Source: Halanaerobium sp. MA284_MarDTE_T2
GTDB taxonomy: Bacteria > Bacillota > Halanaerobiia > Halanaerobiales > Halanaerobiaceae
Assembly: GCF_003337245.1 (NCBI RefSeq)
Contig: NZ_QPJE01000001.1
Coordinates: forward strand, 186,001 to 250,000
DNA length: 64,000 bases
Reading direction: 5' to 3'
This document shows positions 4,836 through 57,863 of the stretch, in pieces; the first letter of the stretch is position 1; each line of letters begins with the position of its first letter. Made by a program: the position numbers and the translations under genes. The notes below the pieces were generated by a model. It did not search any database. It was not told the DNA's origin and worked only from the letters and a program-made list of their open reading frames with translations.

Positions 4836-4925
4836 AGTTTCCCCATTTTTTAGTTTTAGATGAATTTAAAAATCTTATTTATGACGAAACTTTTTTGTAA
4901 CTATAAAAATAATTTTCGGGGAACT
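4836..4925. repeat. Short element with TTTCCCC-type inverted ends
   Basis: AGTTTCCCC at one end and GGGGAACT at the other form imperfect inverted ends about 90 bp apart in the spacer upstream of the DUF3388 gene. The left end shares the 15-bp string TTTCCCCATTTTTTA with the end of the palindromic element at 56434-56697. The interior is AT-rich and non-coding. It may be a short relative of that element, but target duplication was not clear. Confidence 0.45.
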
Positions 4926-4972
4926 CTTTTTTGTTTAATATATTGAATTTAGTGTTTGGAAAATTAAAACCG

Positions 4973-51349: not shown

Positions 51350-51446
51350 AATCCCTCCTCTGGTCTTGTGAATAATAATTGAGTAAGAAATTTTAATATT
51401 CCTTTATCTAATTTTGTACAGCATAATTTAAAAATAGGTAACTATT

Positions 51447-54400
51447 TTAAAAGAGTGAGAGCTGATTTTTTTCGGGTAATCCATCCAGAGAACCATGTTC
51501 TCTGAGCTTTTCTATTACAGTTTTAGTAACAGAAGTTCTATTTGAAAGGTCTTCAATAGAAGTGAAATCTGATTTTAACCTTTCTTCCACAATACTTTCG
51601 GCAGCACTACGCCCAAGACCCTGCAGACTGATTAGAGGTGGAAGTAGTTTATTATCTATTTTTTTAAATTTAGATGCATCTGATTTATAAATATCAACAG
51701 ACATAAACTCTATTCCCCTCAGCATAGCTTCTAACACAATTTTTAGTACTGTAAGAGTTCCACTTTCTTTGGCAGTCATATCATTTCCCTTGTCTTTCAA
51801 ATCTCTAATAGTTTTTTCAACTTTTTGGCGCCCATTACAGGCGAGCTGTGCATCAAAATCATCAGCTTTAGTGCTGAAATAAGTAGTATAAAATGCTGCT
51901 GGATAATGTACTTTAAAATATGCAATTCTAAATGCCATTGTGACATAAGCAGCTGCATGTGCTTTAGGAAACATATATTTTATTTTTTTGCAGGAATCAA
52001 TATACCAGCTGGGAATGTTATTATTTTTCATTATACTTTCTTCTTCTTTGGTCAGTCCTTTTCCCTTTCGAACATGTTCCATAATCCAGAAAGAATCCTG
52101 GGGATCAACACCTTTCTGAAGTAAATAGTTCATAATATCATCACGCACAGATATTACCTCTGAAAGTTTAGCTTTTCCTGATTTTATTAAATTTTGAGCA
52201 TTATTTAACCATACATCTGTACCGTGAGAAAGTCCACTTATTCTAACCAGTTCTGCAAAAGTGGTCGGCCTTGTATCTTCAAGCATCTGTCTTACAAATC
52301 CTGTACCAAATTCAGGTATACCAAGAGTACCAACTTCTGTTTTTAAGATATCTGAATTAAGATTGAGAGCTTTCTGATTAGAAAAAATGCTCATAGTTTT
52401 TTTATCATCAAGTGGAATAGATTTGGGGTCTATACCAGTTAAATCCTGCAGCATTCTAATTGATGTAGGATCATCATGTCCAAGTAGATCTAGTTTTAAA
52501 ATTCTGCCGCTGATTGAATGATAATCAAAATGAGTTGTCCTGACATCTATTGACTGGTCATTGGCAGGATGCTGAATGGGAGAAAAATCAAATATATCTT
52601 TAGATTTTGGTACAATCATTAGTCCGCCCGGATGCTGTCCGGTCGTTTTTCGCACTCCCGTACATCCATCTACCAATCGATTAATTTCAGTCTGATTAAC
52701 TTCTATTCCCCTATCATCTAAATAATTTTTAACAAAACCAAAAGCTGTTCTTTCAGCAATTGTAGATATTGTACCTGCTCTAAAAACATAATCACGGCCA
52801 AAAAACTCTTCTGTATAATGATGTATTTCACTTTGATATTCACCGGAAAAATTGAGGTCAATATCAGGAACTTTATCACCTTTAAAACCCATAAAAACCT
52901 CAAAAGGAATGTCAAAACCGTCTTTTTCATATTGAGAGCCACATTCCGGACATGTTTTTGGAGGCAGATCTACACCTGTACCTATTGATCCATCTTCAAT
53001 AAATTCATTTTTAAAACATTTAGGGCATCTATAGTGTGGTGGCAGAGGATTTACTTCAGTAATTTCACACATAGTGGCAACAAATGAAGAGCCAACTGAA
53101 CCTCTGGAACCAACTAAATATCCATCTTCAAGTGATTTTTTAACAAGTTTATGTGATATTAGATATATCACAGCAAACCCATTATCTATTATAGATTTCA
53201 GCTCTTTTTCCAGCCTGCTGACAACAAGTTGGGGCAAATTTTCTCCATAAAGTTTGCGGGCCTTTCTGTAAGACATTTTTCTTATCTCCTCTTCTGCACC
53301 TTTTATTTCTGGAGTGAACAGCCCATCCGGAATAGGCTGCAAATTATCAATCTGTGCAGATATTTTCTGAGTATTAGTAATAACAACTTCTTCAGCAGCC
53401 TCTTTCCCAAGATAGGAAAATTCATCCAGCATTTCTTCTGTTGTTCTATAGTATAATGGTGGCTGCTGATCAGCATCAGGAAATTTTTGTCCTACCTGCA
53501 GAATTTTTCTAAATATACTGTCGTGTGGATCAAGAAAATGAACATCAGAAGTTGCTGCAACAGGTTTATCCAATTTTTTGCCAAGGTTATATATTTTTTT
53601 ATTTATATTTTTCAGATCCTGACTAGAATTAACTTTATCAGGAATTAAAAATTCATTATTTCCTAAAGGCTGTATTTCAAAAAAATCATAGAGAGTAGAT
53701 ATTTTTTCTATTTCATTGATAGGTCTGTTATTAACAAGTGCTTTAAATAGCTGACCTGATTCGCAGGCAGATCCCACCAAAAGTCCTTCCCGATACTGAA
53801 GAAGCTTGCTTTTTAAAATTCTTGGTTTTTTATAAAAATTATTTAGATGTGAAATAGAAACCAGTTTATATAAATTTTTAAGTCCTTTTTTATTTTTAGC
53901 AAGTAAAACTGTATGAAACGGTCTTAAGTCTTTCCAATCTATTTTGCTGATATAATTATTTATATCCATTAAACTATCATTTTTATCTTCTTTTAAAAGC
54001 TTCAGCAGATTGGCCAGTATTTCTGCTGTAGCCAGTGCATCATCAAGAGCACGGTGATGATTTTTTAAGTCAACAGCAAAATAGTCTGAAAGAGTATTTA
54101 ATTTGTAATTTTTAATATCTTTAACCAGTGCTCGCGAAAGTGATAAAGTATCTAAAACAGTAAACTCATCTTTTTTAATATTCAAATTCTGCAGTGCAGA
54201 TCTTATAAAACCATAATCAAAATCAGCATTATGGGCTACCAGAACAGAATTATCCGCAAATTCAAGAAATTTATTAACCGCTTCTTTTAAAGAGGGTGCG
54301 GCTTTAAGCATCTCTTCTTTAATACCTGTAATTTCAGTTATTTTGGATGGTATTTTATTTTTGGCGTTTACAAATGTATTAAATTTGTCTATAATTTCAC

Positions 54401-55676
54401 CATTTTTAAATTTCACTGCCCCAATTTCAATTATTTCATGCTGAGAAGGATTAAGACCAGTTGTTTCTAAATCAAAAACTATAAATTCCACTTCATCAAT
54501 TTTTTCAGGGAAAGGTTTGGTAATTATTGGTTCACCATCATCAACTAAATATGCCTCTAAACCATAGATGATTTTAACACCATATTTTTTACCGGCTTTA
54601 TAGGCATCTGGAAAAGATTGAACCACACCATGATCAGTTACAGCAACAGCATTATGACCCCAATCTGCTGCTCTTTTAACAGCATCATTAATATTAAGTA
54701 CTGAATCCATAGCACTCATCTGTGTATGGAGATGTAATTCAACTCTTTTTTTTGGATTATTATCCTGTCTAGTTTTTTTATTTATTTTCATCATATCATT
54801 AAAGAGAATATTCCAGTCTCTGCTGTATGGATCAAAAGTAACTTTCCCTCTAAGTTTTATCCAGTCACCTTTATTGAGTGATTCAATTTTTTCAATTTCA
54901 TCATCAGAAAAAACTTTGGCAGAGATAGAGCTTTTGTAATCTGTGATCTGTAATATGTAGAGCAGTTTGCCTTTGCGTGTTTCCTTTTTTTCAACTGAAA
55001 AGACTGAAGCTTCTACCACAGCAGATGATATTTCTCTATTGAGCTGATCCAGTGTGTGAGTAGTTTTTTGCTTTATCTTACGGCCGCATATTATATTGGT
55101 TTTATTTCTATTTTGTTTATTTTTCTTTTTGTAAGATTTTTTATTGTTGATTTCAGCACTAACACTGCTGCTGTCATCAGTATTATTTTTGTTCATTTCT
55201 TCGACAATAAGAGTTTTTTCTTTAATGTCGTCCAGAAAATCGCCATTATGAACAGTAACTTTTTTTATCTGTGGAAGATATTTATTTATGTTTTTTTCCA
55301 AGAAAACAATTACTTTTTTCTGAGCGAGAGCTTTTTTTGCTACTTCTGTTTCCATTTTTAGCATCAATTGATTATCTTCCACAAAAATATGGGCTCTTTT
55401 AAGCCAGTTAGTAGTAAAACAAAATTCATCTTTAAAATTCCGAATTATATGTGGCCATATCAGTGTTATTTCTTCTTTAAGGCTTAAATTATCTATCACT
55501 TCTATTTGATATTTTCTGGTTAAAAAATCTAGTTTTTTTTCTATCAAACTTTTAATTTCTTCTGAAGATACTTTTTTTGTTGATAAAAGCATAATTTTAC
55601 TATTTTTTTCATCACATAAAATATATTTAAAAGGAGTATTGTTATTGTCTATATTGCAGCATACTGCCTTGTTCAT
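51447..55676 (-). CDS. polC: DNA polymerase III PolC-type alpha subunit
   Basis: The 1409-residue replicative polymerase is of the Gram-positive type. An OB-fold lies around 220-310 and PHP domain strands around 315-420 (ELHLHTQMSAMDS, VTDHGVVQSFPDA). The proofreading exonuclease is inserted around 405-580 (VFDLETTGLNPSQHEIIEIGAVKF, HNADFDYGFIRSAL, HHRALDDALAT). A zinc finger near 910 (CPKCFKNEF, CPECGSQYEKDGFD) and the palm aspartates in GDKVPDIDLNFSGEYQ follow. An earlier in-frame ATG lies before the AGGAGG site, so this ATG was chosen. Confidence 0.97.
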   Translation of the reverse strand: MNKAVCCNIDNNNTPFKYILCDEKNSKIMLLSTKKVSSEEIKSLIEKKLDFLTRKYQIEVIDNLSLKEEITLIWPHIIRNFKDEFCFTTNWLKRAHIFVEDNQLMLKMETEVAKKALAQKKVIVFLEKNINKYLPQIKKVTVHNGDFLDDIKEKTLIVEEMNKNNTDDSSSVSAEINNKKSYKKKNKQNRNKTNIICGRKIKQKTTHTLDQLNREISSAVVEASVFSVEKKETRKGKLLYILQITDYKSSISAKVFSDDEIEKIESLNKGDWIKLRGKVTFDPYSRDWNILFNDMMKINKKTRQDNNPKKRVELHLHTQMSAMDSVLNINDAVKRAADWGHNAVAVTDHGVVQSFPDAYKAGKKYGVKIIYGLEAYLVDDGEPIITKPFPEKIDEVEFIVFDLETTGLNPSQHEIIEIGAVKFKNGEIIDKFNTFVNAKNKIPSKITEITGIKEEMLKAAPSLKEAVNKFLEFADNSVLVAHNADFDYGFIRSALQNLNIKKDEFTVLDTLSLSRALVKDIKNYKLNTLSDYFAVDLKNHHRALDDALATAEILANLLKLLKEDKNDSLMDINNYISKIDWKDLRPFHTVLLAKNKKGLKNLYKLVSISHLNNFYKKPRILKSKLLQYREGLLVGSACESGQLFKALVNNRPINEIEKISTLYDFFEIQPLGNNEFLIPDKVNSSQDLKNINKKIYNLGKKLDKPVAATSDVHFLDPHDSIFRKILQVGQKFPDADQQPPLYYRTTEEMLDEFSYLGKEAAEEVVITNTQKISAQIDNLQPIPDGLFTPEIKGAEEEIRKMSYRKARKLYGENLPQLVVSRLEKELKSIIDNGFAVIYLISHKLVKKSLEDGYLVGSRGSVGSSFVATMCEITEVNPLPPHYRCPKCFKNEFIEDGSIGTGVDLPPKTCPECGSQYEKDGFDIPFEVFMGFKGDKVPDIDLNFSGEYQSEIHHYTEEFFGRDYVFRAGTISTIAERTAFGFVKNYLDDRGIEVNQTEINRLVDGCTGVRKTTGQHPGGLMIVPKSKDIFDFSPIQHPANDQSIDVRTTHFDYHSISGRILKLDLLGHDDPTSIRMLQDLTGIDPKSIPLDDKKTMSIFSNQKALNLNSDILKTEVGTLGIPEFGTGFVRQMLEDTRPTTFAELVRISGLSHGTDVWLNNAQNLIKSGKAKLSEVISVRDDIMNYLLQKGVDPQDSFWIMEHVRKGKGLTKEEESIMKNNNIPSWYIDSCKKIKYMFPKAHAAAYVTMAFRIAYFKVHYPAAFYTTYFSTKADDFDAQLACNGRQKVEKTIRDLKDKGNDMTAKESGTLTVLKIVLEAMLRGIEFMSVDIYKSDASKFKKIDNKLLPPLISLQGLGRSAAESIVEERLKSDFTSIEDLSNRTSVTKTVIEKLREHGSLDGLPEKNQLSLF

Positions 55677-55700
55677 TAAAATACCTCCTAAATTCATAAC

Positions 55701-56336
55701 TCAATTAAATAAATTAAGAAAAAAAGTTCTTATTATATCTAAATACATTTTTAATCTTTTTACAAATCCCTTTAAAAAGCCGAATTTCTTTTCTTTTTTT
55801 ACATGGCTTACATTATTTAGTTTAACCTGAAAAGATCTACCGTAGTTCTTTACATATTTATTTAAAGCTAATTCAATTCCAAATCCTGATTCTTCTAAAT
55901 TTTCAATCTGATAAAAGATATGTTTTTTTACTGCTCTTTGCCCAGATAAAGTAGGTGTAATCTGCTGTGCAATTTCTGCAATACTGCTGCTGTTTTCTAA
56001 AATACCCACACACATATCTAAATCATCATTTAACATAGGTTCTACCAGTTGATCAATATGTTCTTTTTTTAAGCCGATCAGATCAGCATCCAGCAGAACA
56101 ACAATTTCACAACTTAAGTGTTTAATTCCTTCCATTACAGCAGCTGCTTTACCTCTATTTTCCTGAAGGGTAATAACTTTTACTCCAAAAGAGGATGCTA
56201 TTTCGGCAGTTTTATCTTTTGAGCCATCATTTACTACTACAATTTCTTTGAGATAATCAACTTTAATTAATGTAGTTAAAACACCAGATATTTGTTTTTC
56301 TTCATTGTAGGCGGGTATTAACGCTGAAATGTCCAC
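55701..56336 (-). CDS. Family 2 glycosyltransferase
   Basis: The 211-residue GT-A fold protein has the N-terminal ALIPAYNEEKQI (residues 5-16), the nucleotide-sugar segment VVNDGSKDKT near 34 and the DXD motif LLDADLIGL near 82. No membrane helix is obvious, although the C-terminus is basic and hydrophobic. It resembles dolichol-phosphate-mannose-synthase-like or glucosyl-3-phosphoglycerate-type enzymes; the acceptor is unknown. The start is GTG 8-9 nt after AAGGTG. It lies 24 bp before polC, in the place where proS stands in relatives. Confidence 0.85.
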   Translation of the reverse strand: MDISALIPAYNEEKQISGVLTTLIKVDYLKEIVVVNDGSKDKTAEIASSFGVKVITLQENRGKAAAVMEGIKHLSCEIVVLLDADLIGLKKEHIDQLVEPMLNDDLDMCVGILENSSSIAEIAQQITPTLSGQRAVKKHIFYQIENLEESGFGIELALNKYVKNYGRSFQVKLNNVSHVKKEKKFGFLKGFVKRLKMYLDIIRTFFLNLFN

Positions 56337-56433
56337 AAAAATCACACCTTATACCTAATTATAATTGTCAATTTTGTTATATAATTCTTTAATTTCTTTT
56401 AATAATTGTCCAGATTTATCACACAATCTTTAT

Positions 56434-56697
56434 AAGGAGTTTCCCCAAAATTTATTTTCAAGCTGCAAAAAGGGGGCTTTAGTCATCAACGAAATTTTTA
56501 GATTTATCTAAAACTCAATTCGGATGTGAAATAGGGCACACTAATCAATGAGTCCTCCTGACTCATGATTAGCTCACTCCATCCTGCAGTTCAACCCTAT
56601 TTCTTCCTTCATTTCGTTAAGATTCATTGACTAAAAATTTCAATATTCCTGCATCTCCCCTTTTTGCAGCAGTATATAAAAAATGGGGAAAGTCTAT
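56434..56697. mobile_element. 264-bp palindromic MITE-like element with 9-bp target duplication
   Basis: The whole stretch is one long imperfect palindrome centred on ATGAGTC-CTCCT-GACTCAT at 56548-56566. Matching arm blocks include TTTCCCC, a perfect 14-bp GCTGCAAAAAGGGG / CCCCTTTTTGCAGC, an 11-bp GAAATTTTTAG / CTAAAAATTTC, and GAAATAGGG / CCCTATTTC. The terminal 13 bp match at 10 positions, and AATCTTTAT flanks both sides (56425-56433 and 56698-56706). No frame codes for a transposase. It fills most of the only gene-free stretch over 300 bp (56337-56810). A structured RNA is the alternative reading. Confidence 0.7.
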
Positions 56698-56791
56698 AAT
56701 CTTTATTACTTGACCTTAATTTTGCTTCAATTATTTCTGCTTCAGAAGGCTCTTCTTTTAGGGTTGGTAGATATAATTTTAACATTCGCAT
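56698..56791 (-). pseudogene. proS: Remnant of the 5' end of proS (prolyl-tRNA synthetase)
   Basis: A frame starting with ATG 20 bp after ispG reads MRMLKLYLPTLKEEPSEAEI and then IEAKL before similarity stops. This is the conserved N-terminus of bacterial ProS, whose gene normally lies between ispG/rseP and polC. The remaining more than 500 residues, including all class II synthetase motifs, are gone; the palindromic element follows. The ribosome-binding site is weak. An intact proS must be elsewhere in the genome, which is an inference. Confidence 0.75.
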
Positions 56792-56810: not shown

Positions 56811-57863
56811 TTAAATATTTTCAATTTCTTTTAAAAGCTCTTCTGAAAGTTTTTCTTCTGGAACTTTCTTTATAACTTTTCCTTTTTTAAAGATAAGTCC
56901 CTCCTGTTTCCCTCCCGCTATACCTATATCTGCTTCCTTTGCTTCTCCAGGACCATTGACTGCACATCCCATTACTGCTATTGTTATATTTTTATCAATA
57001 TGAGAAGTCAATTTTTCCACCCGTTCAGCCAGAGGAATTAAATCAATTTCTGTTCTTCCACAGCTTGGACAGGATACAATCTCCACTCCTTTTTCCCGCA
57101 GCTTGAGAGATTTTAATATTTGCCAGCCAACACGAACTTCTTCTTCTGGTTCAGCAGTCAGCGAAACACGGATAGTGTCACCCAATCCACAGCTCAGCAG
57201 TGATCCTATACCTATAGAAGATTTAATAGTACCCCCCCAGGAAGTACCAGCTTCAGTAATACCAATATGGAAGGGGTAATCTACCTTTTCAGCCATAAGA
57301 GAATAGGCCTCTATTGTTGTAAAAATATCGGTTGATTTAAGTGATATAACAATATCAAAAAAATTATTATCTTCCAGAATACGGATATTCTGCAGAGCAC
57401 TTTCTACCATAGCCTCTGCTGTAGGACCACCATATTTTTCCAAAATTGATTTTTCTATTGAACCAGAATTACTGCCAACCCTTATCGGTATTTTAGCTTT
57501 TTGACAAGCTTCTGCCACTTTTTTTATATTTCTTTCTTTCCCAATATTTCCTGGATTTATACGCAGTGCATCTACACCTGAATTAACTGATTCAAGTGCA
57601 AGTTTATAGTCAAAATGAATATCAGCCACGATAGGAATATTAATTTCTTTTTTTAGCTCTTTTATAGCTCGTGCACTTTCTATATCAGGTACTGCTGTTC
57701 TAATTATTTCACAGCCTAAATTTTCTAATATTTTTATCTGTTCAGCAGTTGATTTAATATCAGAAGTTTTAGTATTTGTCATTGACTGAACAGATATAGG
57801 GGCATCACCACCTACCGGAACATCCCCAAAATAAACTTTTTTGGTTTTTCTTCTCCTATACAT
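56811..57863 (-). CDS. ispG: 4-hydroxy-3-methylbut-2-enyl diphosphate synthase (IspG/GcpE)
   Basis: The 350-residue [4Fe-4S] enzyme of the MEP isoprenoid pathway makes HMBPP. The N-terminal TIM-barrel part begins with PISVQSMTNTKTSDI near 22. The cluster cysteines lie in VSCPSCGRTEIDL near 262 and in AVMGCAVNGPGEAKEADIGIAGG near 296. The ATG follows GAGGTG. It is 27 bp after rseP. Confidence 0.96.
   Translation of the reverse strand: MYRRRKTKKVYFGDVPVGGDAPISVQSMTNTKTSDIKSTAEQIKILENLGCEIIRTAVPDIESARAIKELKKEINIPIVADIHFDYKLALESVNSGVDALRINPGNIGKERNIKKVAEACQKAKIPIRVGSNSGSIEKSILEKYGGPTAEAMVESALQNIRILEDNNFFDIVISLKSTDIFTTIEAYSLMAEKVDYPFHIGITEAGTSWGGTIKSSIGIGSLLSCGLGDTIRVSLTAEPEEEVRVGWQILKSLKLREKGVEIVSCPSCGRTEIDLIPLAERVEKLTSHIDKNITIAVMGCAVNGPGEAKEADIGIAGGKQEGLIFKKGKVIKKVPEEKLSEELLKEIENI

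Follow-up and report, generated by a model that had tools for sequence, protein, structure and literature searches.

Across the class to which this Halanaerobium strain belongs, the gene order runs ispG, proS, often a glycosyltransferase gene, and then polC. The window, by which we mean the whole stretch of 64,000 nucleotides analysed here, retains these neighbors but carries no intact prolyl-tRNA synthetase gene among them, which raises the question of what became of an essential gene at its usual place and which enzyme now does its work. We argue that this is very likely a case of xenologous displacement, in which a foreign bacterial-type ProS encoded beside D-proline reductase (prd) genes has taken over and the native gene survives as a relic with two recognizable ends. 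In this explanation the native proS would have shrunk to its ends because the cell has come to rely on a copy from another, related bacterial order.

The ancestral position of the gene is well marked. The adjacency of ispG and proS is kept in nearly all relatives within the class whose locus is contiguous, which agrees with the first-pass annotation of the window, where proS was taken to belong before polC. In the same family proS follows ispG in 12 of 14 genomes, the two exceptions being the window's genome and that of Halanaerobium salsuginis (ATCC 51327). In H. salsuginis the native proS is gone: polC starts 31 bp past ispG, and no proS remnant was recognized in the gap (L089:7808-7838). 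In two genomes of a more distant genus (G041 and G048) the examined stretch around proS contained neither ispG nor polC, and the position of this proS in the tree is as expected. A second proS fragment in another relative (G014) was dismissed as merely a contig break beside ispG.

Both ends of the native gene can still be read between ispG and polC on the minus strand of the window (Table 1). The N-terminal relic begins 19 nt past the ispG stop codon, and its similarity to ProS ends at codon 25. Scored against the native ProS N termini of 12 relatives from the same family, it reaches 93.3, and the runner-up among the 39,304 stop-free 25-mers from all six frames of the window reaches 25.9, bearing out the initial reading of a ProS N terminus whose similarity is then lost. 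The relic matches native family ProS at 17 to 21 of 25 residues and the genome's own functional ProS at 13 to 14 of 25; being closer to the native enzyme than to the replacement, it derives from the native gene and was not copied from the replacement. The AGGAGTGAT-like ribosome-binding site that precedes native proS in relatives is absent before it. The C-terminal relic is short, but with a score of 20.5 against native C termini it is the best of the 1452 stop-terminated tails in the window (next, 13.4), and its DNA aligns with the proS tail of a relative (G001) in which the glycosyltransferase gene lies a few bases after native proS. In the window the corresponding stop codon (56355-56357) is 9 nt upstream of the glycosyltransferase gene. 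With the mobile element that separates them left out, the two relics stand in different frames, and ∼525 of roughly 570 codons are missing. The locus thus holds a truncated and frameshifted copy at the orthologous place with its start signals gone, a pseudogene that makes no ProS, and the proposal that the native gene had decayed in its ancestral spot is upheld by these relics. The description of a 25-codon remnant proved incomplete, because both proS ends survive: codons 1 to 25 are present, but the C-terminal tail and the 264-bp element had been overlooked, and the left limit assigned to the remnant (56698) is in fact the first base of the element's target duplication.

Table 1. Features of the ispG-polC interval, in window coordinates
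Feature	Position	Strand	Remarks
polC	51447..55697	-	Downstream neighbor, intact
Glycosyltransferase family 2 gene	55701..56345	-	Follows proS in many relatives as well
C-terminal native-proS relic	56355..56405	-	LLKEIKELYNKIDNYN, then stop; identified by tail scoring and DNA alignment
Target-site duplication, other copy	56425..56433		AATCTTTAT, 9 bp
MITE-like element	56434..56697		264 bp, ends GGAGTTTCCCC ... GGGGAAAGTC; imperfect terminal inverted repeats of ~35 bp
Target-site duplication, one copy	56698..56706		AATCTTTAT, 9 bp
N-terminal native-proS relic	56717..56791	-	25 codons, MRMLKLYLPTLKEEPSEAEIIEAKL; 17-21/25 identical to 12 native family ProS
ispG	56811..57863	-	Intact neighbor upstream of relic; native proS comes directly after it in relatives

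The element lying in the scar belongs to a repeat with at least 40 copies in the window's genome, at 95 to 100% identity (loci L011-L039 in addition to the copy in the window). At least 9 bases are repeated on both flanks in most of the 31 copies read, and at the proS scar the 9-bp duplication is intact on either side. Like the miniature elements known as MITEs, which are short non-autonomous DNA transposons, it combines a length of 264 bp with terminal inverted repeats, 9-bp target duplications and many near-identical copies, and it has no transposase frame. A search of Rfam returned nothing above threshold, and a known RNA was rejected as the identity of the repeat. Diverged repeats that share a common core of ∼150 bp at 70 to 75% identity occur in other genera (G039, with 18 copies listed, as well as G015, G019 and G025). 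MITEs seldom show such a spread, which may point to a family of some age or to structure in the core. Elsewhere in the window, at 4849-4929 and 51378-51434, are two further pieces of this repeat family that have diverged to ∼74 to 76% identity; the second of them lies just after polC.

A matched duplication is the mark of one simple insertion. Most likely, therefore, the body of ∼525 codons had already been lost from the gene when the element landed, although a deletion later than the insertion, beside the duplication and leaving it intact, may also have produced this arrangement. We considered whether the element itself broke or removed proS, either as the inactivating hit or through recombination between two copies that deleted the middle of the gene. 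Its location exactly between the two relics would fit such a role, but recombination between two copies would give unmatched flanks, and the perfect duplication indicates a single insertion. Moreover, no more than a few tens of bases lie between either relic and the insertion point, which means that the body had gone beforehand or was deleted afterwards without touching the duplication. On this evidence we regard the element as an improbable cause of the loss.

Still less probable is that the 25-codon frame has been kept as a small gene or as a leader peptide. An open stretch of 55 codons with a well-preserved N terminus would fit this reading, but half of the frame lies within a mobile element found at 40 or more other places, the ribosome-binding site of native proS is missing, and the C-terminal counterpart of the relic stands in another frame. 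The first-pass annotation had named a short conserved gene in relatives as evidence that would speak against a remnant, and none was found at this position among the relatives examined, which have a full-length proS or, in one case, nothing. We give just as little credence to an assembly artefact, in which two contigs were misjoined across the 40-copy repeat and an intact native proS exists. A draft assembly (69 contigs, 99.8% complete) with identical copies of the repeat at many sites would allow such an error, but a misjoin would not place the same 9-bp duplication on both flanks of the element together with both ends of one gene in the correct order and orientation, and no proS of native type is present elsewhere in the assembly.

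The single full-length proS of this genome is encoded on a contig other than that of the window (C13:44305-46026, minus strand) and specifies a protein of 574 aa. This protein scores 747 bits against the bacterial model TIGR00409 (cut-off, 306.7), aligns over its full length with a solved bacterial enzyme (2j3l), and contains the class II core, an inserted editing domain (PF04073) and an anticodon-binding domain, so that the catalytic, editing and anticodon-binding domains are all present. Against the archaeal/eukaryal model TIGR00408 the whole protein reaches 147.5 bits and the best genomic stretch reaches 82 bits, scores far under the cut-off of 437 that rule out an archaeal-type ProS as the replacement. 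The suggestion that the newcomer might be of a different ProS type is therefore not sustained, as it is of the same bacterial long type II with an editing domain. It differs from other bacterial type II enzymes only in its phylogenetic place, which is with two other families of the class (f8 and f11) and not with its own. Judged from its sequence, this copy beside the prd genes probably does the work of ProS in the cell.

We performed a phylogenetic analysis of 55 ProS sequences in which the proteins of the window's genome and H. salsuginis are sisters (100), placed beside f11 (97) within a group of f8 and f11 (99) and well separated from the other 12 family members. We take f11 to be the Halobacteroidaceae, and one f8 genome matches Candidatus Frackibacter. 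Forcing all ProS of the family (f1) into one clade is 164 log-likelihood units worse (AU p = 1.1e-34). In the PolC tree, by contrast, both genomes fall inside their own family (100), with H. salsuginis deep within a genus whose other members retain native proS. Relatives that still have native proS branch between the two genomes, and the native gene has therefore been lost on at least two occasions. The two ProS proteins share 88% of their residues, and their genes agree at 59% of fourfold sites, compared to 63 to 70% and 30 to 39%, respectively, for IspG, PolC, RseP and Dxr, which indicates that the split of the two lineages came first and that the foreign ProS afterwards passed from one to the other or reached each from a single source. 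The replacement type is sister to f11 on a long stem (0.38), and its closest sequences from outside the family are just 65 to 69% identical. No near-identical donor was found, and a scan of named genomes with this protein, in which the patterns were poor, returned mostly Nitrospira at 53 to 57%. The only full-length copy therefore branches apart from the clade that the recipient's relatives form, and the native copy at the syntenic place is decayed in one genome and lost in the other, which is what displacement entails and supports the idea, raised at the outset, of replacement by a transferred copy.

On the minus strand around the new gene the order is prdR, prdC, prdA, prdB, prdD, prdE, prdF, prdG, a sodium/solute symporter gene, a copy of the MITE-like element, a PepQ-like peptidase gene and proS. 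The order from PrdR to PrdG is that of the D-proline reductase clusters of Clostridium sticklandii and C. difficile (PMC3091704); the present cluster differs from these in having proS and the peptidase and symporter genes at one end. In H. salsuginis proS lies at the opposite end of the cluster, before prdR. PrdA, PrdC, PrdD and PrdR of the window's genome all score above their curated cut-offs, and of 59 genomes from the class just 4, these two included, have a PrdA that does so. In the window's genome PrdA has 700 aa, which makes it longer than the others seen, and the PrdB frame is split in two, as would happen if an in-frame stop codon specified selenocysteine. Between the two genomes PrdF and PrdG show a low divergence like that of ProS (fourfold identity, 59 to 64%), and PrdA, PrdC, PrdD and PrdR do not. 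The nearest relatives of PrdA also differ between them. Transfer of the whole cluster as a unit between these lineages was rejected, as PrdA, PrdC and PrdR are at least as diverged as vertically inherited genes. By sequence affinity the cluster is a mosaic: in the prd locus of the window's genome (L196:3225-16771) PrdF and PrdG are close to H. salsuginis, and PrdA and PrdC have other affinities. ProS may have traveled together with prdF and prdG, a suggestion drawn from their equal divergence between two genomes that differ in gene order.

A general linkage of proS to prd genes was not found. In 7 other prd-bearing genomes with a type II proS, this gene is on a different contig or far off, and it does not occur within the stretch around prdA in the other prd-bearing genomes examined. 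Searches of the stretches around prd with both ProS queries gave only weak partial matches in L210 (23 to 32% identity). Control of proS by PrdR and sigma-54 was rejected for want of a convincing promoter before the gene, the count of matches being about that expected by chance in L197 and moderately higher in L196. A literature search of partial coverage returned no published link between proS and the prd cluster. In the more distant G041, whose prd genes are on another contig, proS lies away from ispG and beside peptidase and sodium/solute symporter genes (L226:10489-14784) that are only 39 to 40% identical to those of the window's genome, possibly a convergent grouping of proline genes. Because proS is unlinked in other prd-bearing Firmicutes and no convincing sigma-54 site precedes it, a functional link is a matter of conjecture: a proline-fermenting cell that both racemizes and drains its proline pool could favor a suited ProS, and a prdF-prdG-proS module could move among halophiles and displace the resident enzyme. 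We think this unlikely.

Displacement by the foreign enzyme accounts for what can be read directly in these genomes, namely, the relic, its synteny, the tree, the anatomy of the insertion and the single full-length proS. In the order of events that we infer, a donor close to f8 and f11 in the same class, one not represented in the sampling, would have supplied an ancestor of this member of the Halanaerobiaceae with a second bacterial-type proS, either along with D-proline reductase genes or at a position beside them. While both enzymes were present, the native copy between ispG and polC would have become dispensable and then suffered an internal deletion of ∼525 codons, a frameshift and the loss of its ribosome-binding site. 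The MITE-like element would have inserted into the resulting scar, duplicating 9 bp, and the same foreign ProS would separately have displaced the native one in H. salsuginis.

Xenologous displacement of aminoacyl-tRNA synthetases is well documented (reviewed in PMC2651853, citing Wolf 1999 and Woese 2000), and the kind of event is therefore already known. The present case shares with those the replacement of an essential gene by an orthologue from another lineage and loss of the native gene. It differs in that the native gene is recognizable in place by both ends and that one donor type appears in two members of a family, with the newcomer beside prd genes; the relic and the prd linkage are its unusual details. 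Replacement of tRNA synthetases is usually inferred from trees alone, whereas here the displaced gene is visible in place and the newcomer is identified. H. salsuginis provides a second, independent case with the same newcomer and illustrates the end state, in which no recognizable relic is left. Together they offer a system for asking whether a synthetase displaced the native one by virtue of having traveled with a cluster of metabolic genes that use up its substrate.
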